Source: Lachnospiraceae bacterium
GTDB taxonomy: Bacteria; Bacillota; Clostridia; Lachnospirales; Lachnospiraceae
Length of the DNA: 64,000 nucleotides
Direction of reading: 5' to 3'
Assembly (NCBI GenBank): GCA_017396555.1
Contig: JAFQLS010000008.1
Coordinates: 25,924 to 89,923 of the forward strand
Positions 43,857-63,823 of the stretch are shown in pieces. The notes beneath the pieces are model-generated. The model was given only the letters and a program-made list of their open reading frames with translations. It was not told where the DNA came from and searched no databases. Numbering within the stretch: position 1 is the stretch's first letter; every line of letters begins with the position of its first letter. The position numbers and the translations under genes are program-made.

Positions 43857-44120
43857 TCCGTGCAGCCGGGGAGATAGCGGTGCCCTGTACCTGCAATCCG
43901 CTCTAGCAGGGGTGATATCTTGTGTCGGATATTTTCTTGCGAAGCTGCCCCTGGTAAGTGGCGATGACGTTCTGGTCTTACGCAATGGGAATCTACGAAC
44001 CGTGTCAGGTCGGGAACGGAGCAGCACTAAGTAGAACCTCTCATGTGCCGTAAGGGTGCCGGGACTGAGTTAACTGCCAGGGTAACGTTTGTGAGAGGTA
44101 TACAAAGCAAGATGCACGGA
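43857..44120 (+). ncRNA. ffs: Signal recognition particle RNA, large Gram-positive type
   Basis: About 264 nt. The universally conserved SRP domain is visible at about 44008-44037 (GTCAGGTCGGGAACGGAGCA then GCACTAAGTA), which binds Ffh. The ends pair perfectly (TCCGTGCA at 43857 with TGCACGGA at 44113), and the Alu-type 5' domain (GCCGGGGAGATAGCGGTGCC) is present, so it is the long Bacillus/Clostridium form. Exact ends are inferred from the terminal pairing. It has its own promoter and terminator, between tadA and pfkA-dnaX. Confidence 0.95.
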
Positions 44121-44140: not shown

Positions 44141-44170
44141 CGTTAGATGAGAAATCGTCTAACGTTTTTT
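44141..44170 (+). terminator. Terminator of the SRP RNA
   Basis: A 10-bp stem (44141-44150 with 44155-44164, one wobble), GAAA loop and TTTTTT tail. Confidence 0.88.
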
Positions 44171-46917: not shown

Positions 46918-47262
46918 ATGGCAAAAAGAGGTGGATTTCCAGGAGGTATGCCTGGTAATATGAATAATCTTATGAAGCAGGCTCAGAAGATGCAGAAGCA
47001 GATGGAGGAGACTACAAAGGAGCTTGAAGAAAAGGAGATTACAACAACATCAGGTGGTGGTGCTGTTGAGGTAACAGTATCAGGAAAGAAGGAAATCACA
47101 AAGATAAAGCTTTCTGAAGAAGTTGTAGATCCAGATGATATCGAGATGCTGGAAGATCTTATAATGGCAGCTGTAAATGAAGCATTCAGACAAATGGAGG
47201 AATATTCATCAGCGCAAATGGCTAAGATAACAGGTGGATTTGGCGGAGGTTTCCCATTCTAA
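46918..47262 (+). CDS. ybaB: YbaB/EbfC family nucleoid-associated protein
   Basis: 114 aa, helical centre ([26 protein letters not shown]) and the strand block [22 protein letters not shown]. Gly/Met-rich ends ([11 protein letters not shown] and GGFGGGFPF) are typical of clostridial members. Binds DNA as a dimer; the tight spacing with dnaX and recR is conserved. Confidence 0.95.
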
Positions 47263-47263
47263 T

Positions 47264-47860
47264 ATGAATTACTACGGAAGCTACATAAATAAATTAATAG
47301 AAGAATTTTCAAAGTTGCCGGGGATTGGTCCAAAATCTGCCGGCAGGCTGGCATTTCATATTATTAATATGCCAAAAGAAAAGGTAGATGCTCTTTCAGA
47401 TGCAATAAGAGATGCGAAGAATAATGTTAAGTATTGTAGTCAGTGTTACACACTCACTGATGAAGAAGTGTGTCCTATTTGCAGAAATGACAAGAGGGAC
47501 CATAAGACTATTATGGTTGTAGAGAATACCAGAGACCTTGCTGCGTATGAAAAGACAGGTCAGTATAATGGCGTGTATCATGTGTTGCATGGCGCGATTG
47601 ATCCGTCTCTTGGAATAGGTCCTGAGCATATTAAGCTTAAGGAGCTAATTGTAAGATTAAGAGAGGATGTTGAAGAGGTTATCATATCGACAAATTCTAG
47701 TGTGGAAGGTGAAATTACAGCCGTATACATCAGTAAGATGATTAAACCGACAGGAATAAAGGTTAGTCGAATTGCAAGCGGAGTTCCGGTAGGTGGAGAT
47801 TTAGAGTATATTGACGAAGTTACGTTATTGAGAGCATTAGAAGGAAGGACAGAACTATAG
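47264..47860 (+). CDS. recR: Recombination protein RecR
   Basis: 198 aa. [16 protein letters not shown] (helix-hairpin-helix), the zinc finger [16 protein letters not shown] and the Toprim motif [13 protein letters not shown] are complete. Works with RecF/RecO to load RecA on gapped DNA. ATG 47264 starts right after the ybaB stop; the ribosome site would be GGAGG inside ybaB. Confidence 0.96.
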
Positions 47861-47878: not shown

Positions 47879-48448
47879 ATGGCTACAGGCGGATTTTGTT
47901 TTTGCAAAGGTGAATTAGTTGAATGTAGTACAGGACGAGTTCAGGACTGTAATACTAAACAGATTCATGCGTGTCCTTTAGAGGAGAAAAAGGAAGAAAA
48001 AACAGAAGATAAGACAGAATTTGGTGGTTTTTGTTTCTGCAAAGGCGAATTAGTTGAATGTATAGCAGGGAGAGTACAGGATTGTAATACTAAACAGGTA
48101 CATACTTGTCCACTTGAAGAGAAGGAAAAAGAGCCAGAGAATAAAAACGAAGAAGTGGTACAGGAATCATCAGAAGAAAAACCAGAGCAAACTAAGGAAA
48201 TAGGTGGTTTCTGTTTCTGTAAGGGGGAACTTGTTGAATGTATAGCCGGACGAGTGCAGGATTGTAATACAAAGCAGGTTCATAAATGTCCTTTAGAGAA
48301 AAAGGAAGAAAAAACAGAAGATAAAGATGAGAGTAAAGATGAGTGTGGTGGATTCTGTTTTTGTAAAGGTGAATTGGTAAATTGTAGCACAGGACGAGTG
48401 CAGGATTGCAACACCAAACAGATTCATAAATGTCCTAAAGAGGAGTAA
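47879..48448 (+). CDS. Four-repeat Cys-rich protein of unknown function
   Basis: 189 aa, no signal peptide or membrane span. Four near-identical 30-residue modules start at residues of about 4, 48, 107 and 155. Each opens GGFCFCKGEL, continues with a Cys, GRVQDCNTKQ and ends HxCP, giving CxC-x6-C-x7-C-x7-C plus a His: 20 Cys in total. Linkers are Glu/Lys-rich and disordered looking. The regular Cys/His set suggests metal binding or an intracellular redox/zinc module; I know of no named family. AAAGGTG precedes the ATG. It lies 18 bp after recR and 9 bp before the JetA-type gene, so it is probably co-transcribed with both. Confidence 0.85.
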   Translation: MATGGFCFCKGELVECSTGRVQDCNTKQIHACPLEEKKEEKTEDKTEFGGFCFCKGELVECIAGRVQDCNTKQVHTCPLEEKEKEPENKNEEVVQESSEEKPEQTKEIGGFCFCKGELVECIAGRVQDCNTKQVHKCPLEKKEEKTEDKDESKDECGGFCFCKGELVNCSTGRVQDCNTKQIHKCPKEE

Positions 48449-48457
48449 TCAGATAAT

Positions 48458-49969
48458 ATGTCACAGGAATTTGTATTAAAAAGAGACATAGTATATGATC
48501 ATAATGAGCGTATGCTGAATATCAGGAAATATTACCCATATTTTAAGCTTATTGAGTCTACATTTTCACAGTATAAGGAAGGTAGATACATAGAACTTGA
48601 TATGGGCTATATTATGATGGCAGTAATACGTTTTTTTATTGAGGAAAATAATTTTAAAGAGAAAAATGTAACCTATCAGGAATTCAAGGATTTTGTATCT
48701 GAAATAATAAGAAGAGACTTTGAACTTGCCCTTTCACAGGATGAAGAAGGCGAGCTTATAGGCTATATTTTTGATAAAATGAAAAATGACGGTAAGCCAT
48801 TTATATACGAATATTTCGATCCTTCCATAAAAAAGAAGAAGTCGGTAAGGGTTAAGCTTATAGAGGATAAGCTTGAGGGAGATAATGTTGTATATTCGAT
48901 AACCTCTGATGCGATAGAATTTTATCTTGATACCAAGGAAATCAAAGATGAAAGTACTATCACAACCTCTCAGCTATTACTGGGTAAGTTGATAGCATCT
49001 AAGAATTTTAAGGGAGGCACTGAGGTTGTAAAGAGAATTAACAACGAGGTGAGCCGACTTATTTCCAAAAAGAATGAAGTTTTAAGCCTGTTGAGTGTTG
49101 ATGTTTTTGAAGGTGTAAAATCATTCGAAGAATTTCAACATACGGGTATGAAATGGTTTGAAGAAGAGCAGAAGCTATTTGCTAAGAATAGGGAATTAAT
49201 CGAAAAAACCTTAAGACAGGGAGAGGCAGAGGGGAAATATCACAATGCCATGGAAGATATATATGTGCTTGAGGCACAACTAAATAAGGCAATGACAAGG
49301 CACAGTGATTTGCTTACAGCCTGTACTTCGCTTCAATTAAAGGCAGATGAGATAGTTACTGCAGCTAAATTTGTTAAGCTCAGAACGACACTTGATTTTA
49401 AGAATACGCTTAACAGACTTATGGAAAAGGATAGACCGGATATTTTGGAGCTAATGATAGCGCCTGCATTTGGTCTTCATCCGGCAAAATTATGGAGTCT
49501 TAATTCTATTGATGACTTGTTAAATTGCAAGACGGATAAGGAAGAAAAAGGCGAGCTAATAAAAGACAGCAGGGAGGATACAAGCTATGTATATCCGGAT
49601 GAACTTGAAGAAATGAGAATTGAAAATAATTACAAATACTTTCTTGAAGCATTATTTACAATGCTCGTTGAGAAGGAAGAATTTACACTTTCTGATTATA
49701 AGAATTATCTTGAAGAATTGCTTGGAGATATTAGCAGAAATGGTGATTATTACTCATTTATGATACATTTGTGCGGAAAAGACTCCTACGATATGAGAGA
49801 AGTCGTGGAAAAGCCGGATACATTTCTTGAAGATAATATCAAGGGTTTCATCGAAGAAAATGTAAAATATTCGGATATGGTATTTGAGATTGAGAGAACG
49901 GGAATGGATAGTCTCATTAATACTGTAGATGATTATGTGATGTCAGATGTTGTATTTAGAAAGCTATAG
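48458..49969 (+). CDS. jetA: Wadjet JetA/MukF-type kleisin subunit
   Basis: 503 aa, helical. Opening winged-helix-like region (YFKLIESTFSQYKEGRYIELD) followed by YSITSDAIEFYLDTKEI, the phrase that in MukF/MksF/JetA kleisins precedes the helical neck, then a long helical core with coiled-coil stretches (residues about 200-320). In this family the kleisin bridges the SMC heads. The order kleisin-small subunit-SMC with the next two genes is that of MukFEB/MksFEB and Wadjet JetABC; it looks closest to type III Wadjet from memory. Confidence 0.75.
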   Translation: MSQEFVLKRDIVYDHNERMLNIRKYYPYFKLIESTFSQYKEGRYIELDMGYIMMAVIRFFIEENNFKEKNVTYQEFKDFVSEIIRRDFELALSQDEEGELIGYIFDKMKNDGKPFIYEYFDPSIKKKKSVRVKLIEDKLEGDNVVYSITSDAIEFYLDTKEIKDESTITTSQLLLGKLIASKNFKGGTEVVKRINNEVSRLISKKNEVLSLLSVDVFEGVKSFEEFQHTGMKWFEEEQKLFAKNRELIEKTLRQGEAEGKYHNAMEDIYVLEAQLNKAMTRHSDLLTACTSLQLKADEIVTAAKFVKLRTTLDFKNTLNRLMEKDRPDILELMIAPAFGLHPAKLWSLNSIDDLLNCKTDKEEKGELIKDSREDTSYVYPDELEEMRIENNYKYFLEALFTMLVEKEEFTLSDYKNYLEELLGDISRNGDYYSFMIHLCGKDSYDMREVVEKPDTFLEDNIKGFIEENVKYSDMVFEIERTGMDSLINTVDDYVMSDVVFRKL

Positions 49970-49984
49970 GAGAAAGAGGAACTT

Positions 49985-50686
49985 ATGAACGATAAAAATC
50001 TTGAAAAAGCTTTAGATATAGTTGGAACACTTATGAATGGTGAGCAGATAAGTAAGGCTCAGTATGAGGAGTATGTTTCAAATGGAGAAATTTATGATTA
50101 TGTCCAGATGATTTGCAAAAAGTTTAATCTTGATGTGTATGAGCATGGAAATGGTCTGTATATGTGCGCAGGATATAACAATAGCTTGTTTGGATATAGT
50201 CATGAAGAGCTTAAGAAAGAAATGGGTATAAAATTAAACAGAGAATTGTATATGTGCTATTTTATTACATATTCCATAATCACAGGATTTTATAAAGATT
50301 CAGCAACTTATAGCTATGTTGAATATGTAAAGCTTGAAGATATTATACAAAATGTTGATAATCTTCTAAAAGGTATAACAGGTAAACTAAAGCTTATGAC
50401 ACTTGAAGAAGTGGAGGAAAACAGCTTTAAGACATTGGCGCTTATGTGGGAAGATTTGCCAATGGTTGTAAATGAGGAAACCACATCGAGAGCAGCAAGA
50501 GGTTCGAAGAAGGGATTTGTAAAGCTGACACTTAACTTCCTTCTTAGCAGGGACCTGCTCCTTGAGACAGAAGGACGTTATTATCCGACTGACAGATTTA
50601 GGGCCTATATTGAGAATTATTTTGAAAAATATAAGGGTCGTATTTTAGAAATTATGAAAGGAGATGTACAGGATGCCACATATTAA
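49985..50686 (+). CDS. jetB: Wadjet JetB/MukE-type subunit (DUF6063-like)
   Basis: 233 aa with predicted winged-helix parts; LTLNFLLSRDLLLETEGRYYPTDRF near the C-terminus reads as a wHTH with wing, as in MukE/JetB KITE proteins, which dimerise on the kleisin. It lies between the kleisin and SMC genes and overlaps the SMC start by 14 bp, implying fixed stoichiometry. Identification is by context more than by motif. Confidence 0.7.
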   Translation: MNDKNLEKALDIVGTLMNGEQISKAQYEEYVSNGEIYDYVQMICKKFNLDVYEHGNGLYMCAGYNNSLFGYSHEELKKEMGIKLNRELYMCYFITYSIITGFYKDSATYSYVEYVKLEDIIQNVDNLLKGITGKLKLMTLEEVEENSFKTLALMWEDLPMVVNEETTSRAARGSKKGFVKLTLNFLLSRDLLLETEGRYYPTDRFRAYIENYFEKYKGRILEIMKGDVQDATY

Positions 50687-53600
50687 CAGAATCAGAGTAA
50701 ACAATGTTAAATATAATTTTGGAACACAGTATTATGATGATTTTCTTATGCGTTTCAATGGAAAAAATACAATATATGATCTGGCGAATGGTGGCGGTAA
50801 AAGTGTATTGATGCTGTTACTTTTTCAAAATCTTATACCAAACTGTACATTAGATGACAAACAGCCTATTGAAAAATTATTCCGTACAAGTGATGGAAGT
50901 AAAACAATACATTCTCTTATAGAGTGGAATTTGAGTGACATACATGTAAAAGATAATTACAAATATATGTTGACGGGGTTTTGTGCAAGAAAGGCGAAGG
51001 AGTCTGATTCAGGAAATCGTGATAATGCATCAATAGAATATTTTAATTATTGTATTTTTTACCGTGAATATAATGACAATGATATTAAGAACCTTCCTTT
51101 GAAAAATGGCAAAGAGAGGGTTACTTATAGTGGACTTAAGAATTATCTTAAGGAGCTTGAAAGAAAAGACTTGAGCCTTAGTGTGAAAATATTTGAGAAG
51201 AAAAGCGACTATCAGAGATTCATAAGTGATTATGGTCTGTATGAGAGCGAATGGGAAATTATAAGAGGCATTAATAAGACTGAAGGTCATGTTAGAACCT
51301 ATTTTGAAACAAATTACAGAAACACGAGAAAAGTAGTTGAAGATTTGTTGATTGAAGAAATTATTCAAAAATCATTTATGAACAAATATGGAAATCAGGA
51401 AGAAGATACAATGGCTCAAACCCTTCTTGATATCAAGGATAAACTTATTGAGTTGTCAGAGAAAAAGGCTCAGATAGAAAATTTTGACAGACAGCAGGAG
51501 ATTATAGAGGCATTTGTGTCAAGAATATCATCTATTAAGCAGATGTATTTTGGGAAAGAAAATATCGAAAGTCAGGTTTGTAAAATTTATAATACAATCC
51601 GTATGAAGGAAGAGAAATACAATACAGACAGAGACAGTCTTGTATCGCGTCTGGAGGAAGTAAGGGCATCTATAAATGATCTTGCAAGACTTTGTGATAC
51701 AGCAAAGGTTATGAAGGAAAAAGCTGTTATAGATCAGATGAACGAAAAACTTGAAGATATTTCAAAGGATGCAGATGAACTGAAAAATGTTCTTGAGGCA
51801 AAAAAGACGGAGCTTAAGTTCAAGGAAAGCGGAAATGATTACCTCGATTATATACATAGCAAAATGGAAGCTGATTCCATAAGGGAGGCAATTAGTGCAA
51901 GAAAACAGGATAGCAGTGCGATTCTAATTGAGACAGAACATTTTGTTACAGAGTTATTTGCAAGAAATAAGGTAAAACTGTCAGAAATTGACGAGAATCT
52001 TGCAAAAGAAGAAGCAGCAGCAGAAAAAGAAAATTCCGTTAATGAAGAACTTACAAAAAAGGAAAGAGAACTCGCAGGAAATCAGGCAGTACTTGAATTT
52101 AAATATAATAATCTAAAAAATGAATATGATGAAAAGTCGAGTAGAGTTGCTAAGAGAATGTCGGATTTGGGTGTTATTGTTTCATCAACTATTCAAAATG
52201 ATATAAAGAATAAGCAGAGAGAATTGCAGTCATTGCAGAATAAAAAATCAGAAATATTAGAGTCTGTTAATACCGAGAAGGAAAATGAAAAGAAGCTTTT
52301 AATCTTAATGGAAACTGGCAAGCTTGAGTTAGATATGCTTAGTTCCAAGGAAAAGGAATTGACCAAGCTTGATAAGGCTAGCAGAGAACGAAGAGAAAGA
52401 TTTGAAAAAATCAGTAGTGTATATGCGGATAAAAAAATAGAAAATATGCATATGGATGTTATCAGGCAAATTGCTGAAAAGGAACAGAAGTTAAAGCATA
52501 AGGAAGAGATTTTAAAGAATCTTAAAAATAATATATCCGTTCCAATGTCCCCAAATATGAAGGGCATTTGTGAATATATTGAGAGATATCATGGTGATAT
52601 TTGTGTTCATGGTGCAAAATATTTGAGCACAAAATCAGAGGAAGAAAGAGAAACTATTATAAACAGAATACCAATTCTTCCTTACAGCATAGTTATTCTT
52701 AAGAATTTTGAAAGAGTAATAGAAGACACAAAGCTTCTTGATATGAATGATGGCATGGTGCCTGATTTTATCATAGACGAGGATGCTATAAGACAGGGTA
52801 AGGATATAATAAACAATGACAATATTATAGTATCTATGAAAAAGCGTGAATATATATTCAATAATAGGGCGATGGAAGCTGAATTGAGTTCTATAGAGGA
52901 GGAAATAAAGGAATTAACCCGTTCACTTCGTCATTTGTATGAGTATGAGGAAGTGATAAGAGAGGATTATGTATTTATCAAAAATTTCACCAACACATCT
53001 GATATTGAAGATATGTCTAATATTAAAGAGAGCTTAAAGGAAATGGAAATTAAGTTTGAGCAATCAAAGGAGGATTATAATTCATGTCTTTCTACAATAA
53101 ATGTGCTTAATGAGTCACTCCTTGAATGTGACAGAGATATTGACAGAATATGTGCAGATATTGCAGAAATGGAAATAATCATTAAGGAAAATTCAGAATG
53201 TGAAATTCTTGAGAAGGAATTGACAGGAACAAAAGCAGAACTTGAAAATCTGATAAAGGAGCATAAGAATATTGCTGCGAGACTTGAAGCAGCACTTAAT
53301 CAGGCGAAAAATCGAGCTGCGAAAATAAAGGGAATCAAGGAACAGAGGCTTAAGATAGAGGATGACTGGAATAATAAATACAAGATTTATTATAAAGAAG
53401 GTCATAATGTCAAGATTAGTGGTGATTATGAGACAGTTGTTTCTAAGCTTAACGGTCTTATTGATGCTCTGCGTGATGAGAATTCGGATCTTGCAGACAA
53501 GGAAAAGCTGCTTAAATCCTATGAGGATTCTATGAATAAAGCACTTGAAAATATCAGATATAGAGAAACCAGTGAAGAGGAGCTAAAGAAATCATACGAG

Positions 53601-55031
53601 GCCAATGAATTGCTTAAGTCTGATAATAATATTCTTTGGGATATAAAATCAGAGTGCAGGAAAATAAATGATGAGCTTGAAAATATCTATAGAGAAATGG
53701 ATGATTTGCGTTCAAAGAGAGATAAGTCAGAGGGAGGGATTTCTCAAGGAATTAACAATATCATAGAGAAGTATGGTGTATTTGATGAAGAGGGAATTGA
53801 AACAGATAAAATTGATGAGTTTATTAATACCCAAAAGGTTGCTGTTAAGGGTATAGAAGAAATGGAAATTCGCCTTGCAGCCGAGCTTAAGGAATTTGAT
53901 AATTTTGCAGGAAAGCAGATTATTTTAAGAGATAATCTTGAAAGGATTTTAAATTCCGGAAATATCAATATTTCTAATTATTCAGGTTATGTAGATGAAG
54001 GTGTTGATTTGTATGCGGCAACAAAGGAAATATCAGAAAAATATGACTTGTTTACAAAGCAGTTGTTCGAAAAGAAGCAGGAATTTGACGGAAATAAGAG
54101 AATGTTGATTACTACACTTAATACCTTGAATGCGGCAGAGCTGGCAAATGAGATAGAGAATAATGTAGTATTTCCTGATTCGGTGGAAGCAACAACAGGA
54201 CTTGTTACAAGGTTGAATGATACAAACATGTGCCTTGAGCTTGAAAAGGAAAGAGTAAGCAAGGGTATTGAGGATATGGAAAGGATAAAAGATAACTTTG
54301 AGAATCAATGTATACAGAGTTGTATAAAGATAAAGACAGAGCTTGAGCGTCTTCCAAAGTTATCTAAGATTAATATGGATGGAGAAAACATTTCCATTAT
54401 TGATTTAAGAATTCCGTATGTAAATGAAGAATCGTATAAGGAAAGAATGTCAGCATATATTGATGAAACAGCAAATGAGGCAGATGCCTTAAAGGAAAAT
54501 GAAGAGAAGCTTAAATATATAAGAAGCAGACTTACATGGAAGAAGTTATTTTCGGTAATTGTTACTGATATGAATGGAATTCGTTTGAAATTATATAAGA
54601 GAGAACGAATAGCCGAAAACAGCAGATATTTACCATATGAAGAGGCTGTTGGTAGTACGGGACAGTCACAAGGTATTTATATTCAGTTCCTTGTTGCAGT
54701 TATTAATTATATTTCCAGTGTTAATTCCAGAGGAGCTGAGGCATCGGGGCTTAAAAAGGTTATTTTTATAGATAATCCTTTTGGCGCAGCAAAGGACGTA
54801 TATATTTGGGAACCTATATTTAAACTGCTTAATACAAATAATGTTCAGCTGGTAGTTCCGGCTAGAGGTGCAACGCCTGCAATAACCGGAAGGTTTGACG
54901 TTAATTATATTTTAGGTCAGAAATTAATAGATGGAAGACAACAGACTGTAGTTGTAGATTATTTTAGTAATGTTGATTCTAAGACGATGGAATATACAAC
55001 TTTATCGTATGAACAGACATCTATGTTTTGA
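50673..55031 (+). CDS. jetC: Wadjet JetC/MukB-type SMC ATPase
   Basis: 1452 aa. N-terminal head with Walker A LANGGGKSVLM (Gly40-Ser44), then about 1000 residues of coiled coil broken by a hinge-like globular part near 610-740 (GICEYIERYHGDICVHGAKYL... to the DFIIDEDAI region), and a C-terminal head with the ABC signature GSTGQSQG (about 1327-1334) and Walker B VIFIDNPFG (about 1363-1371). Asn, not Glu, follows the Walker B Asp. Such motors extrude DNA loops. Start ATG 50673 has AAAGGAG 9 bases upstream. No JetD-like nuclease follows. Confidence 0.83.
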   Translation: MPHINRIRVNNVKYNFGTQYYDDFLMRFNGKNTIYDLANGGGKSVLMLLLFQNLIPNCTLDDKQPIEKLFRTSDGSKTIHSLIEWNLSDIHVKDNYKYMLTGFCARKAKESDSGNRDNASIEYFNYCIFYREYNDNDIKNLPLKNGKERVTYSGLKNYLKELERKDLSLSVKIFEKKSDYQRFISDYGLYESEWEIIRGINKTEGHVRTYFETNYRNTRKVVEDLLIEEIIQKSFMNKYGNQEEDTMAQTLLDIKDKLIELSEKKAQIENFDRQQEIIEAFVSRISSIKQMYFGKENIESQVCKIYNTIRMKEEKYNTDRDSLVSRLEEVRASINDLARLCDTAKVMKEKAVIDQMNEKLEDISKDADELKNVLEAKKTELKFKESGNDYLDYIHSKMEADSIREAISARKQDSSAILIETEHFVTELFARNKVKLSEIDENLAKEEAAAEKENSVNEELTKKERELAGNQAVLEFKYNNLKNEYDEKSSRVAKRMSDLGVIVSSTIQNDIKNKQRELQSLQNKKSEILESVNTEKENEKKLLILMETGKLELDMLSSKEKELTKLDKASRERRERFEKISSVYADKKIENMHMDVIRQIAEKEQKLKHKEEILKNLKNNISVPMSPNMKGICEYIERYHGDICVHGAKYLSTKSEEERETIINRIPILPYSIVILKNFERVIEDTKLLDMNDGMVPDFIIDEDAIRQGKDIINNDNIIVSMKKREYIFNNRAMEAELSSIEEEIKELTRSLRHLYEYEEVIREDYVFIKNFTNTSDIEDMSNIKESLKEMEIKFEQSKEDYNSCLSTINVLNESLLECDRDIDRICADIAEMEIIIKENSECEILEKELTGTKAELENLIKEHKNIAARLEAALNQAKNRAAKIKGIKEQRLKIEDDWNNKYKIYYKEGHNVKISGDYETVVSKLNGLIDALRDENSDLADKEKLLKSYEDSMNKALENIRYRETSEEELKKSYEANELLKSDNNILWDIKSECRKINDELENIYREMDDLRSKRDKSEGGISQGINNIIEKYGVFDEEGIETDKIDEFINTQKVAVKGIEEMEIRLAAELKEFDNFAGKQIILRDNLERILNSGNINISNYSGYVDEGVDLYAATKEISEKYDLFTKQLFEKKQEFDGNKRMLITTLNTLNAAELANEIENNVVFPDSVEATTGLVTRLNDTNMCLELEKERVSKGIEDMERIKDNFENQCIQSCIKIKTELERLPKLSKINMDGENISIIDLRIPYVNEESYKERMSAYIDETANEADALKENEEKLKYIRSRLTWKKLFSVIVTDMNGIRLKLYKRERIAENSRYLPYEEAVGSTGQSQGIYIQFLVAVINYISSVNSRGAEASGLKKVIFIDNPFGAAKDVYIWEPIFKLLNTNNVQLVVPARGATPAITGRFDVNYILGQKLIDGRQQTVVVDYFSNVDSKTMEYTTLSYEQTSMF

Positions 55032-55088: not shown

Positions 55089-58049
55089 TTGGATAATTAC
55101 GAATATAATATTAAGTCGGATCAAATTAAAAAGCTTTATAATAAAAGAGACTATGCTACAGCAGCTAAGGTTGCTGATAGCATTGACTGGAGAAGAGTCA
55201 AGAATATCTCTATGCTTAGTCTTGTAGGGGATATTTATGACAGATGTAAAGAGTACGAAAAAGCAAGAAATGTATTGCTTATTGCCTATGACAGAACCAG
55301 CACCGGAAGACAGTTGGCATACAAGCTTACTATTCTGTCTTTAAGACTTAAAGATTTTGTAGAGGCGGATGAGTTCTATCAGGATTTTATTGAAATAGCA
55401 CCTGAAGATACTACACAGTATATTCTTAAGTATAGAATTGCTAAGACAAAGGGTGAAGATAATGATGTCCTTATTCAGATTCTTGAAGCATATGTTGATG
55501 TGGAAATGGACGAAAGATGGCAGTATGAGCTTGCTAAACTATATGCCCAGACAGATCAGGTTCGCAAGTGTGTGGATATGTGTGACCAGATTATTCTCTG
55601 GTTTAGTGAGGGCAAGTATGTAGAGAAAGCTATGGAGCTTAAGATGAAGTATGAGCCTTTGACACCTGACCAGCAGGAAAAATATGATAACAGAGAGTCG
55701 CTTAAACAGACAAAGATTGAGGACGTACCGGCAGCTATTCCTGTTGAAGAATCAACAGAGTCATCGGATGTGAATAGGTTTGATACTAAGACGGATATAC
55801 TAAATGATACGTTTGGTAATATTCCTGTTATCACTGATGAGGTTATCAAAGAAGAAAAAAAGGAAACAGAAGCTAAGAAAGAAGAGGCTTCGGCTGAAAG
55901 TATAGAAGATAATGAAGCAAGACAGCAGCAAGAGGAAGATATTAAGCAGTTGGATAAAGAAATGTATGGTGATAATAGTACCATAGAGATTTATGATTTT
56001 TCAGATTCATCTGATGAGAAGATGAGCAAAATAGGCGAGAGTCTTATGAAGACAACGGAAATTGATATTGATGAAATTAATTTCAGAGCAATGAATGTAA
56101 GTGATTATGATACCGCAAATATACAGGCGGCAATTGCAAAGAGTATGGAAATCATTTTGAAGGAAAGCAACCCGGCAGATGTGCCAAAGGTTGCTGATAA
56201 TACTGCGCCAATTAATGGAGATTTGGGAAAGACTAAATCTATTGATACTCTCCAGATAAAAGAATTAATGAATGCAAGAACAGTTATGAATGCGGATACA
56301 ACAGAGATAGATACATCTGTATCAGTTGTTAGAAGTGCATTTGACCAGCCTACCGAGGATGAAATTCGTAAGGAAACTCTTATGAATGAAGCTAGAATCA
56401 ATGTAATGAAAGAGCATTTAGAAAGGGAAAAAGCAGAGAGTATGGCTGATAAGGTTAATATTTATCATACAGTTCCTCTTAATCCGATGTTTGAGCAGGA
56501 AGAGGATGGACAGATTGGATTAGCTGAACCAGACGAAGAGGAAGCACAGATTGAAGGTCAGATGACAATTGAGGAAGTGCTTCATGAGTACGAAATTAGA
56601 GCAAAATATGAGGCGGCATTAGCAGAGGTTGCTAAGTATGAAGCAGAAATAAAGAAACAGGAAGAACGTAGAAAAGCAAGAGAAGCTGCAATTGTATTAG
56701 AACAGAATAAGCAGGAAGAGTTTTCTTCTGAATCTGATGAGGATACATTAAGCGATGAAAATGACGAGCTTGTTCAGGTGGAGGAAGGAACTGATTCGGA
56801 CTGGATTGAGGATACAGGCGAGATTCCAACAGAAACAGTTAAGCATTTGGACAGAGAAGACCCTGTGGAGGAACAGGAAGAAGAGTCGGAAGAACTGGAA
56901 ATTGATGAGCAGCAGGATTTAGTAAATGCTCTTTTTGGAGAGCTGCCTAGTGTAGAAGAGGTTCTGGAGCAGAGAGATGATGAGGAAGTGCCAATGCCGG
57001 CATTTGGTCAGCCGGGTAGTATTGATGCCATACCTATAGCTACACCTGTAGTAGCACCTGTAGTTGAGCCGGTAGTTACACCTGCGATTGAACCGGAAGT
57101 ATTACCTGTGTCAGAAGAGGCTGAAGCACAGTCAGAAGATATGGAAATTGCGTCTGAGGTAGCTGAGCCGATAGATGAATCAGAGGATGATCCGGGAGTG
57201 GTGGCACAGCCAGAGGAAGAACCTGAAGCTGAACATGAAGAACAGGAAAGAGTAGAAATTCAAAATAGAGATGAAGAGGAACTTGGAAAAATTCGTCTTA
57301 AGGATGAATACAGGGCTGTATTTGCTGATTTCTTAGATATGCCGGGACTTGAAGAACAGCTTGTAAAAACTATTGATCGTCTTGTCAATGAATTTGAGGT
57401 GGACGGAACTTCTAAAAATAACAATGTTGTTATTATGGGTGATGCTAAGACTGGAAAGACAACTCTTGCACTTGGAATTATCAAGGTTGCAAACAGAGCA
57501 AGAGGAAATGGTCGTGCAGGAAGAAAAGTTGCTAAAATTAAAGCAGAGATTCTCAATAAAAAGGGTGTTACATCAGCTATGCCAAAGATTCTTGGTGCCG
57601 ATTTGGTTATCGAAAAAGCTGGAAATCTCACACCAACAACAGTAATTGACCTTATAGAGATAATGAATACTTATACAGAGGAAATGCTTATTGTTATGGA
57701 AGATGATCAGGCAGCAATTGAAAGGCTTTTTAATACTACACCTAAGCTTAAGAAGGTATTTGACAATACAATATTTATTAAAGGTCATGATGTTGATGAT
57801 TATGTTCATATGGCAAAGGATTATGCAGCTAAGAGAAGATATGTTGTAAACGAAATGGGTACTCTTGCACTATATGAGAGAATTGGTGATATCTTTGGAA
57901 GAAATCAATGTGTTACTAAAGATGAGTTAGAGGGTATCATTGACGAAGCTATTAATCATTCTGAGCGTGGAGGCATTAAGAGATTATTTGGAATGGTAAA
58001 GCGAAATAAGGATGAATTTGGAATTCTTAAAGAGGAAGATTTTATATAA
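55089..58049 (+). CDS. TPR and AAA-ATPase two-part protein of unknown function
   Basis: 986 aa, TTG start (AGAGGTG 7 bases upstream). Residues 1-200 are TPR-like helical repeats (DQIKKLYNKRDYATAAKVAD, EYEKARNVLLIAY). Residues about 205-750 are long, acidic and low-complexity, with many EE/PV runs and a coiled coil near 500-560. Residues about 755-986 resemble the CbbX/SpoVK-type AAA domain: P-loop GDAKTGKTT (784-792), Walker B-like LIVMEDD (about 867), and FDNTIFIKGHDVDDY. Arginine finger and sensor residues are not evident. Might assemble or remodel a complex; no enzyme role can be assigned. Confidence 0.75.
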   Translation: MDNYEYNIKSDQIKKLYNKRDYATAAKVADSIDWRRVKNISMLSLVGDIYDRCKEYEKARNVLLIAYDRTSTGRQLAYKLTILSLRLKDFVEADEFYQDFIEIAPEDTTQYILKYRIAKTKGEDNDVLIQILEAYVDVEMDERWQYELAKLYAQTDQVRKCVDMCDQIILWFSEGKYVEKAMELKMKYEPLTPDQQEKYDNRESLKQTKIEDVPAAIPVEESTESSDVNRFDTKTDILNDTFGNIPVITDEVIKEEKKETEAKKEEASAESIEDNEARQQQEEDIKQLDKEMYGDNSTIEIYDFSDSSDEKMSKIGESLMKTTEIDIDEINFRAMNVSDYDTANIQAAIAKSMEIILKESNPADVPKVADNTAPINGDLGKTKSIDTLQIKELMNARTVMNADTTEIDTSVSVVRSAFDQPTEDEIRKETLMNEARINVMKEHLEREKAESMADKVNIYHTVPLNPMFEQEEDGQIGLAEPDEEEAQIEGQMTIEEVLHEYEIRAKYEAALAEVAKYEAEIKKQEERRKAREAAIVLEQNKQEEFSSESDEDTLSDENDELVQVEEGTDSDWIEDTGEIPTETVKHLDREDPVEEQEEESEELEIDEQQDLVNALFGELPSVEEVLEQRDDEEVPMPAFGQPGSIDAIPIATPVVAPVVEPVVTPAIEPEVLPVSEEAEAQSEDMEIASEVAEPIDESEDDPGVVAQPEEEPEAEHEEQERVEIQNRDEEELGKIRLKDEYRAVFADFLDMPGLEEQLVKTIDRLVNEFEVDGTSKNNNVVIMGDAKTGKTTLALGIIKVANRARGNGRAGRKVAKIKAEILNKKGVTSAMPKILGADLVIEKAGNLTPTTVIDLIEIMNTYTEEMLIVMEDDQAAIERLFNTTPKLKKVFDNTIFIKGHDVDDYVHMAKDYAAKRRYVVNEMGTLALYERIGDIFGRNQCVTKDELEGIIDEAINHSERGGIKRLFGMVKRNKDEFGILKEEDFI

Positions 58050-63127: not shown

Positions 63128-63706
63128 ATGAAGAAAAAGATAGGGATGGTTTTATTAATTATATGTCTTATTGTAGACATTCTTTTAGTAGGATTGTTTT
63201 GGAAAAATTATATGTATTATATGGCGGATGTAGACGGATGGACCATTGGTTTGTTCATAGGCGCTGTGATTATATTAGAAAGTATTATAGTGATAGTACA
63301 TTGTATAAAGGGACAAGATTTTTTAATATATAAGATAGTTATATCTGTATCTCTATTATTTATCGTTGGTACAAGTATATATAAAATTTATAACGATTCT
63401 GTGCATTATAATTTAAAATATGAGAATGTAGAGAGCATAAGAAGTATGGATAGAGATTTTAATGATGAGGAAACAAAGAATTTTATTGAGCTATTTAATA
63501 ATGCTAAATATATCAAAAGAAATCTTAGTTGTGAGGAAGAGGGAACACCTGATAAGACAATTTTAGTTAAATTATCTGATGGAGAGTTTGTATCACTTTG
63601 CACATTTGGTGAACAGATTGCTGTTCATGTTACAGGTAGGAGTTATGAGAATAGTAGTTATTGGATGGAGCAAAAGGAAATAAGTGAAATAATTAGTATA
63701 AAATAG
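63128..63706 (+). CDS. Membrane protein of unknown function
   Basis: 192 aa from ATG 63128 (GTG 63119 is an alternative). Three hydrophobic segments (KIGMVLLIICLIVDILLVGLF, TIGLFIGAVIILESIIVIVH, FLIYKIVISVSLLFIVGTSI) precede a soluble C-terminal domain of about 95 residues. No family recognised. It ends 8 bp before the riboswitch. Confidence 0.6.
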   Translation: MKKKIGMVLLIICLIVDILLVGLFWKNYMYYMADVDGWTIGLFIGAVIILESIIVIVHCIKGQDFLIYKIVISVSLLFIVGTSIYKIYNDSVHYNLKYENVESIRSMDRDFNDEETKNFIELFNNAKYIKRNLSCEEEGTPDKTILVKLSDGEFVSLCTFGEQIAVHVTGRSYENSSYWMEQKEISEIISIK

Positions 63707-63713
63707 ATTAATA

Positions 63714-63796
63714 GGGCAAACTCAAGGGAAACGTGGGGACGCAAAGCTAGAAGCCTAACGTAATGCATATAGCATTTTTATGGTGGTTCGGTTGCA
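63714..63796 (+). promoter_or_regulatory. c-di-GMP-I (GEMM-I) riboswitch
   Basis: GGGCAAACTC, a GAAA tetraloop stem (AGGGAAACGT), GGGGACGCAAAGCT, the GCCTAA junction and, after the second hairpin, the tetraloop-receptor side GGTTCGGTTGC all occur in GEMM-I order and spacing. The 3' strand runs into a terminator, so ligand binding should switch transcription of the downstream gene. Confidence 0.88.
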
Positions 63797-63823
63797 ATGA
63801 GATGGATTCATTGCAACCTTTTT
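63790..63823 (+). terminator. Riboswitch-controlled terminator
   Basis: Perfect 11-bp stem (63790-63800 with 63808-63818), 7-base loop, TTTTT. Its 5' arm shares bases with the riboswitch closing strand, so aptamer and terminator compete. Confidence 0.85.

Follow-up and report, generated by a model that had tools for sequence, protein, structure and literature searches.

A JetD-less JetABC operon of the type III Wadjet family in Lachnospiraceae, probably a domesticated second chromosomal SMC complex

Three adjacent genes, jetA, jetB and jetC, lie in a 64,000-nucleotide stretch from a Lachnospiraceae bacterium (GenBank assembly GCA_017396555.1, contig JAFQLS010000008.1, positions 25,924 to 89,923; G000:C46:25924-89923 in our numbering), which was analysed as a whole and is called the window here. 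They encode kleisin, KITE and SMC subunits of the type III Wadjet family, and they belong to a clade of JetABC sets without the Wadjet nuclease JetD. We think that this clade probably represents a nuclease-free, domesticated second chromosomal SMC complex that arose from a type III Wadjet and is comparable to MksBEF of Pseudomonas aeruginosa. An earlier note on this DNA had left three options, namely a chromosomal condensin, a defence system with its nuclease elsewhere, or a system with a new effector, and the first is now the favoured one. Direct support comes from the profile family membership of the proteins, the absence of JetD, congruence with RpoB, conservation of the site in one genus, purifying selection and the presence of a canonical Smc gene.

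The ancestor would have been a type III Wadjet with the gene order JetD-JetA-JetB-JetC, from which JetD would have disappeared at or near the base of a mainly Lachnospiraceae clade. The remaining JetABC would have stayed at places in the chromosome, in many cases immediately downstream of dnaX-ybaB-recR, and its transmission would have been mostly vertical. Within the complex, the JetC heads would bind ATP, JetA would bridge the heads and JetB would sit on the kleisin, and the assembly would entrap DNA and probably extrude loops, without cutting. It probably serves as a second condensin beside Smc, and its genes neighbour those for the clamp loader and a recombination mediator. What we infer is that it extrudes loops, that its substrate is the chromosome and what it does there, which could be folding, segregation or repair.

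The earlier note had recognised kleisin-, KITE- and SMC-type genes in JetABC order, and the comparison with Jet profiles that it proposed bears this out: the best models are PADLOC JetA3, JetB3 and JetC3, and the homologues stand in the A-B-C order by which type III Wadjet is recognised (Table 1). All three genes are intact open reading frames (ORFs) on the same strand, and jetB and jetC overlap by 23 bases. Pfam returned no informative family for JetA and JetC. In a profile-profile comparison, JetA aligned with 14 canonical, JetD-linked type III JetA proteins over 440 columns and most of its length (probability 98.9, E 1.7e-17). Against solved structures, the JetC profile gave coiled-coil-type matches only (among the best 60 of 107) and the JetA profile weak, unrelated ones.

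That JetD is missing among these genes was confirmed and extends from the locus to the rest of the assembly (2.34 Mb, 57 contigs, 85% complete), in which the JetD_C family (PF09983) has no match at E ≤ 10 and a profile built from 14 JetD proteins of type III none at E ≤ 1; the same PF09983 search recovered the control, Corynebacterium glutamicum. As the assembly is incomplete and fragmented, its own lack of JetD is weak evidence alone, and the claim is carried by a comparative survey of 200 Lachnospiraceae genomes, one per genus. JetC matches in this survey (E ≤ 1e-10) separate into 30 of no less than 990 bits, which include the window and form its clade, and 16 canonical ones at 123-190 bits; the clade is thus present in 30 of the 200 genera sampled. 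JetD stands beside none of the 30 clade loci, 26 of which show the sequence upstream of jetA, whereas all 16 canonical loci have it. There it lies directly before JetA in 14 cases, L078 is cut by a contig end, and in L084 it is found about 9 kb upstream. At this last locus (G175:C10:79000-98900), an ORF of 2433 amino acids and two smaller ones separate jetD from jetA.

A working Wadjet with its JetD encoded in trans, as the earlier note considered, is close to refuted. JetD_C matches do occur on other contigs of nine of the 30 clade genomes, and those in G150 and G173 are part of an additional type III locus of the canonical kind, so that the JetD-less and the canonical versions coexist in these two genomes. 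However, JetD_C is no commoner with the clade (9 of 30 genomes) than without it (55 of 170), and the 21 clade genomes lacking it are mostly at least 98% complete. The type III JetD profile, which recovered one true JetD that PF09983 had overlooked (in G135), was run over 44 genomes. Each of the 16 that have a canonical locus gave a match at E ≤ 1e-105, and the 28 clade-only genomes yielded five weak matches only (E 1e-5 to 0.04), never on the contig of jetC. A JetD in trans was rejected on these counts. Pfam recognised no DNA nuclease among 27 ORFs at 18 clade loci (20 with a family, seven without), which comprise 26 ORFs of at least 104 amino acids directly adjoining jetA or jetC, with recR, the TPR-AAA gene that often follows jetC and a Cys-rich ORF excluded, and one ORF between jetA and jetB. 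A calcineurin-like phosphoesterase is encoded beside jetC in L088; this fold also includes Mre11/SbcD.

The origin of the clade becomes visible outside the family. A class-level survey matched JetC in 25 of 391 genomes (28 matches), and 20 stretches were fetched, of which 19 lie outside the family, with six further outside matches not included. Among the 18 readable type III loci from outside the family (the fragment L232 was left out), 16 have JetD directly before JetA. The two exceptions, L235 and L247, are the two type III JetC loci of a single genome (G524), neither with a recognisable JetD, and L235 is also without recognisable jetA and jetB. A clade JetC profile detected 248 relatives over the genomes of 84,980 species, and the best 80 of these were read, which overlap with the 30 members from the family survey. 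Of the 80, 54 are labelled Lachnospiraceae and the others carry broad names or those of other genera, some being the same contigs as family-survey genomes (such as L174/G008); the clade is mainly Lachnospiraceae. JetD was seen in one of the 80, that of Clostridium vincentii (L216), and 17 show no jetA with a visible upstream gene, where a JetD could escape notice. The C. vincentii JetD is a 384-amino-acid ORF that overlaps jetA (L216 6607-7761; E 3e-36). C. akagii (L221), whose JetC is 70% identical to that of C. vincentii, has no JetD next to jetA; an ORF on the opposite strand of this locus (L221 64-1399) resembles, by reading, a tyrosine recombinase.

The JetC tree joins C. vincentii with C. 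akagii as sister to the rest of the clade (support 94, and 96.7 in a smaller tree), and the JetD-bearing L228 and L229 are placed further out. Because C. vincentii and the more distant L228 and L229 carry JetD, it was most likely lost in the clade rather than never present, and the simplest history is one loss at or near the clade base, C. akagii and L247 having lost the gene independently. One further locus, L069 (G092), falls outside the clade in the tree, and an approximately unbiased test does not reject a placement inside it (p 0.144); its contig starts inside jetB, and a genome-wide search of G092 found no JetD.

As one gene of four has been lost, and as C. akagii and L247 are further JetD-less cases elsewhere, the operon might be taken for a defence locus in decay. 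This is refuted for the clade as a whole, since its JetABC genes are under purifying selection. Among 12 pairs tested, the two unsaturated clade pairs gave ratios of nonsynonymous to synonymous substitution rates (dN/dS) of 0.06-0.12 for all three genes, the jetC frames are open across the survey and the ATPase motifs are invariant. The comparison of C. vincentii with C. akagii gave a dN/dS of 0.05-0.19.

The JetD-less JetABC is also inherited mostly vertically. JetC distances in the clade follow those of RpoB (n = 30, Spearman 0.79, 0 of 999 permutations as high), with 19 of 27 splits shared, whereas canonical JetC (n = 16) reaches 0.51, with 15 of 999 permutations as high and 2 of 13 splits shared. 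Subsamples of 16 clade rows gave 0.69-0.90 (5-95%), and JetA shares 20 of 25 splits with RpoB in the clade (n = 28) against 1 of 13 in the canonical set (n = 16); the mobile inheritance of a defence gene was not observed in the clade. Persistence within a genus was taken from the genus of G008, as the search for the window's own genus yielded the window's genome alone. There, jetC is found in 18 of 22 genomes (12 of the 13 good ones), and the JetC proteins are 44-53% identical to that of G008, with one piece at 70%. Sixteen of the 17 other loci were fetched, and wherever the upstream side is visible, in 15 of them, the order dnaX-ybaB-recR-jetA-jetB-jetC is uninterrupted; the TPR-AAA gene then follows in 14, and the fifteenth ends with its contig. 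A search for Smc itself, without ScpA and ScpB, matched the canonical protein in all 30 clade genomes, 29 of them over the cut-off and the other, G040, with the match divided between two contigs; JetABC is therefore an addition to Smc, not its replacement.

The strongest rival is an immune complex that works without cutting, in which JetABC would entrap and compact small circular DNA and so silence or mis-partition plasmids, or would recruit an effector other than JetD encoded elsewhere. We consider it rather unlikely, but several observations speak for it. The canonical relatives are anti-plasmid systems according to the literature, and an analogy exists in human Smc5/6, for which such an action on viral circles is proposed; a review describes how it compacts circular viral DNA (PMC10586767). 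The clade is patchy by genus and evolves fast, at a rate like that of the canonical versions. On the other hand, the congruence with RpoB and the fixed synteny in one genus are unlike the canonical type III sets of the same family, none of 50,697 phage records matched the clade, and the single match among 72,556 plasmid records is partial, to a megaplasmid with 24% identity over 19% of JetC. The scanned neighbours share no common effector, a distant partner not having been searched for.

Some of these observations, and others, weigh against domestication as a chromosomal complex. With 30 of 200 genera, the clade is dispensable at the genus scale, and its JetC changes about 4.4 times faster than RpoB, close to the 4.9 times of canonical JetC. 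Where sequence upstream of jetA is visible, recR precedes it with at most three ORFs between in 10 of 26 family-survey loci and is not near it in the other 16. The clade shows no clear loss of the JetA and JetB residues that are conserved with JetD: the search for columns kept only with JetD, as candidates for a docking site, returned one in JetA and none in JetB, so that a remodelled nuclease-docking site was not seen. Domestication does not follow from the loss of JetD alone, since C. akagii and L247, which are not clade members, have JetD-less type III JetABC too. Finally, the evidence is computational throughout, and the function proposed for JetABC is a prediction. Taken with these reservations, the nuclease-free chromosomal complex is still the reading that we favour.

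Another explanation takes JetABC and the downstream TPR-AAA protein as one functional unit, with the latter as loader, unloader or effector. The TPR-AAA gene starts 57 bases after jetC on the same strand in the window, of the 29 family-survey loci in which the jetC end is visible, 20 have it at most two ORFs from jetC, and it follows JetABC at recR as well as where an ORF of about 760-780 amino acids leads the locus. Yet the protein was matched in 188 of the 200 genera (some matches are weak and perhaps to TPR only), as against 30 with the clade JetABC, and five of the 12 genomes in which it was not matched have the clade JetABC (G040, G070, G128, G159 and G179). In six of 20 JetABC-free genomes it stands directly behind recR, which looks like a clean loss or an unoccupied state. 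We regard a functional unit as improbable, and as a dedicated new effector the TPR-AAA protein was rejected on its distribution and its position behind recR without JetABC; of the third option of the earlier note, this candidate fell, and another effector is possible.

The TPR-AAA protein has a long acidic middle, and no Pfam or NCBIfam model matched it over the cut-off. Its place directly behind jetC is taken in L065, L094, L096 and L104 by a radical SAM protein of about 290 amino acids, an assignment based on Pfam matches that pass the cut-off for L094 and L104, on a match below it for L096 and on length and position only for L065. Directly before jetA, L064, L068 and L093 encode a protein of 759-778 amino acids, with a weak cyclic-nucleotide-binding domain in L068 and L093; ORFs of similar length, matched by length only, precede the TPR-AAA gene in some JetABC-free genomes. 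Other neighbours of clade loci are varied and include an aldolase, ApbE, a Mur ligase, IspD, radical SAM proteins, polyphosphate kinase and GGDEF proteins.

The clade combines a kleisin-KITE-SMC set without a nuclease with retained ATPase motifs in JetC (Table 1). The motifs were aligned over 29 clade members, L068 being left out as it ends before the signature. The signature reads GSTGQSQGIY in the clade, and canonical JetC has NSGGEGF at this position in 13 of 16 rows. The altered signature was considered as a sign of the nuclease loss and rejected, as the JetD-bearing C. vincentii has GSTGQ and the JetD-bearing L228 and L229 have GSEGQ; since C. vincentii has the clade signature together with JetD, the signature predates the loss and marks the lineage. 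SMC proteins usually carry DE at Walker B, with the Glu being catalytic. In every type III JetC row with letters there (the window as well as L070-L085 and L228-L247), Walker B is DNP, whether JetD is present or not.

A more far-reaching proposal can be made, which we hold only tentatively and as less probable than its contrary. It sees here a further independent origin of a bacterial chromosomal condensin, by which a type III Wadjet would have been domesticated in Lachnospiraceae through an ancient nuclease loss, placed behind dnaX-ybaB-recR and set to work beside Smc. In view of the lineage-specific signature and the Asn that replaces the Walker B Glu, it would perhaps not extrude fast but hold DNA as a slow clamp where replication or repair takes place.

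Table 1. Coordinates of the JetABC genes, the JetC motifs and the adjacent ORFs in the window.
Feature	Position	Strand	Basis or remark
jetA, kleisin subunit, type III Wadjet family, 503 amino acids	48458..49969	+	PADLOC JetA3 E 3.9e-198, four more JetA3 models
jetB, KITE subunit, 233 amino acids	49985..50686	+	PADLOC JetB3 E 2.9e-94; Pfam DUF6063 E 4e-46
jetC, SMC ATPase, 1455 amino acids	50664..55031	+	PADLOC JetC3 E 0, 1671.5 bits
JetC Walker A (ANGGGKSV)	50784..50807	+	alignment; N42-S47 invariant in 29 aligned clade members
JetC ABC signature region (EEAVGSTGQSQGIY)	54639..54680	+	residues 1326-1339 invariant in 29 aligned clade members
JetC Walker B and D-loop region (VIFIDNPFGAAKD)	54759..54797	+	Asn at the usual position of the catalytic Glu
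recR, upstream neighbour	47234..47860	+	name by reading of the sequence
Cys-rich ORF, 189 amino acids, four repeats, between recR and jetA	47879..48448	+	outside the conserved set
TPR-AAA protein, 986 amino acids, directly downstream of jetC	55089..58049	+	family core gene, not JetABC-specific

The flanks of the operon are as the earlier note described them, with pfk-dnaX-ybaB-recR upstream of jetA (names from reading of the sequences) and a split transketolase (Pfam) downstream of the TPR-AAA gene. From pfk (44282) to the C-terminal transketolase gene (59833), every gene is on the + strand and the gaps are at most 57 bases. Of the terminator-like sites, the strongest has its end at 44165, between the signal recognition particle (SRP) RNA and pfk, and inside the run there is a single weak + strand terminator-like match, within recR. 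The SRP RNA is of the bacterial large type and lies at 43858-44119, just 5' of pfk; near the window end, a cyclic di-GMP-I riboswitch is found at 63705-63799. The Cys-rich ORF between recR and jetA, on which the earlier note was silent, consists of four near-identical repeats (GGFCFCKGELVECxxGRVQDCNTKQxHxCP) with acidic linkers between them. It had no match in Pfam, NCBIfam or PADLOC, and among the loci compared its only relative, with a single repeat, is in the same place in L089 (G181).

No published description of the clade was found in the titles and abstracts listed from an open-access library, most subscription papers and preprints lying outside this search. Its interest is that the step from defence to housekeeping may be visible in it, with a JetD-less clade, the JetD-bearing sister C. 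vincentii, the JetD-less neighbour C. akagii and two genomes, G150 and G173, that have both versions. With such stages side by side the transition becomes testable, and C. vincentii and C. akagii are a natural pair for studying the loss of JetD. Any defence-gene caller that were to accept JetA3, JetB3 and JetC3 in the absence of JetD might score such a housekeeping complex as an immune system.

Among known systems, type III Wadjet is close, and canonical versions of it were reportedly tested for plasmid restriction by Doron and colleagues in 2018. The clade is alike in its JetA, JetB and JetC models, the A-B-C order, the NGGGK Walker A and the DNP Walker B, and differs in the missing JetD, the RpoB-like inheritance and the signature described above.

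MksBEFG of C. glutamicum is likewise a kleisin-KITE-SMC operon beside Smc-ScpAB. Unlike the clade, it has the MksG nuclease and targets plasmids; excerpts of the studies on it describe an action on plasmids and report that no role in chromosome organisation was found (PMC7083940, PMC10123090). The enterobacterial MukBEF is a nuclease-free kleisin-KITE-SMC complex that organises chromosomes, a role that the clade would share. It differs in having taken the place of Smc-ScpAB, as stated in excerpts of the review cited above (PMC10586767), whereas Smc is kept in all 30 clade genomes. A further parallel is P. aeruginosa MksBEF, a nuclease-free MukBEF-like condensin beside Smc, and the same excerpts contain the proposal that MukBEF and MksBEF derive from Wadjet-like defence, P. 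aeruginosa MksBEF through the loss of JetD (PMC10586767). The two are from different superfamily lineages and phyla, and the source of the Lachnospiraceae clade is a type III Wadjet with a known JetD-bearing sister.

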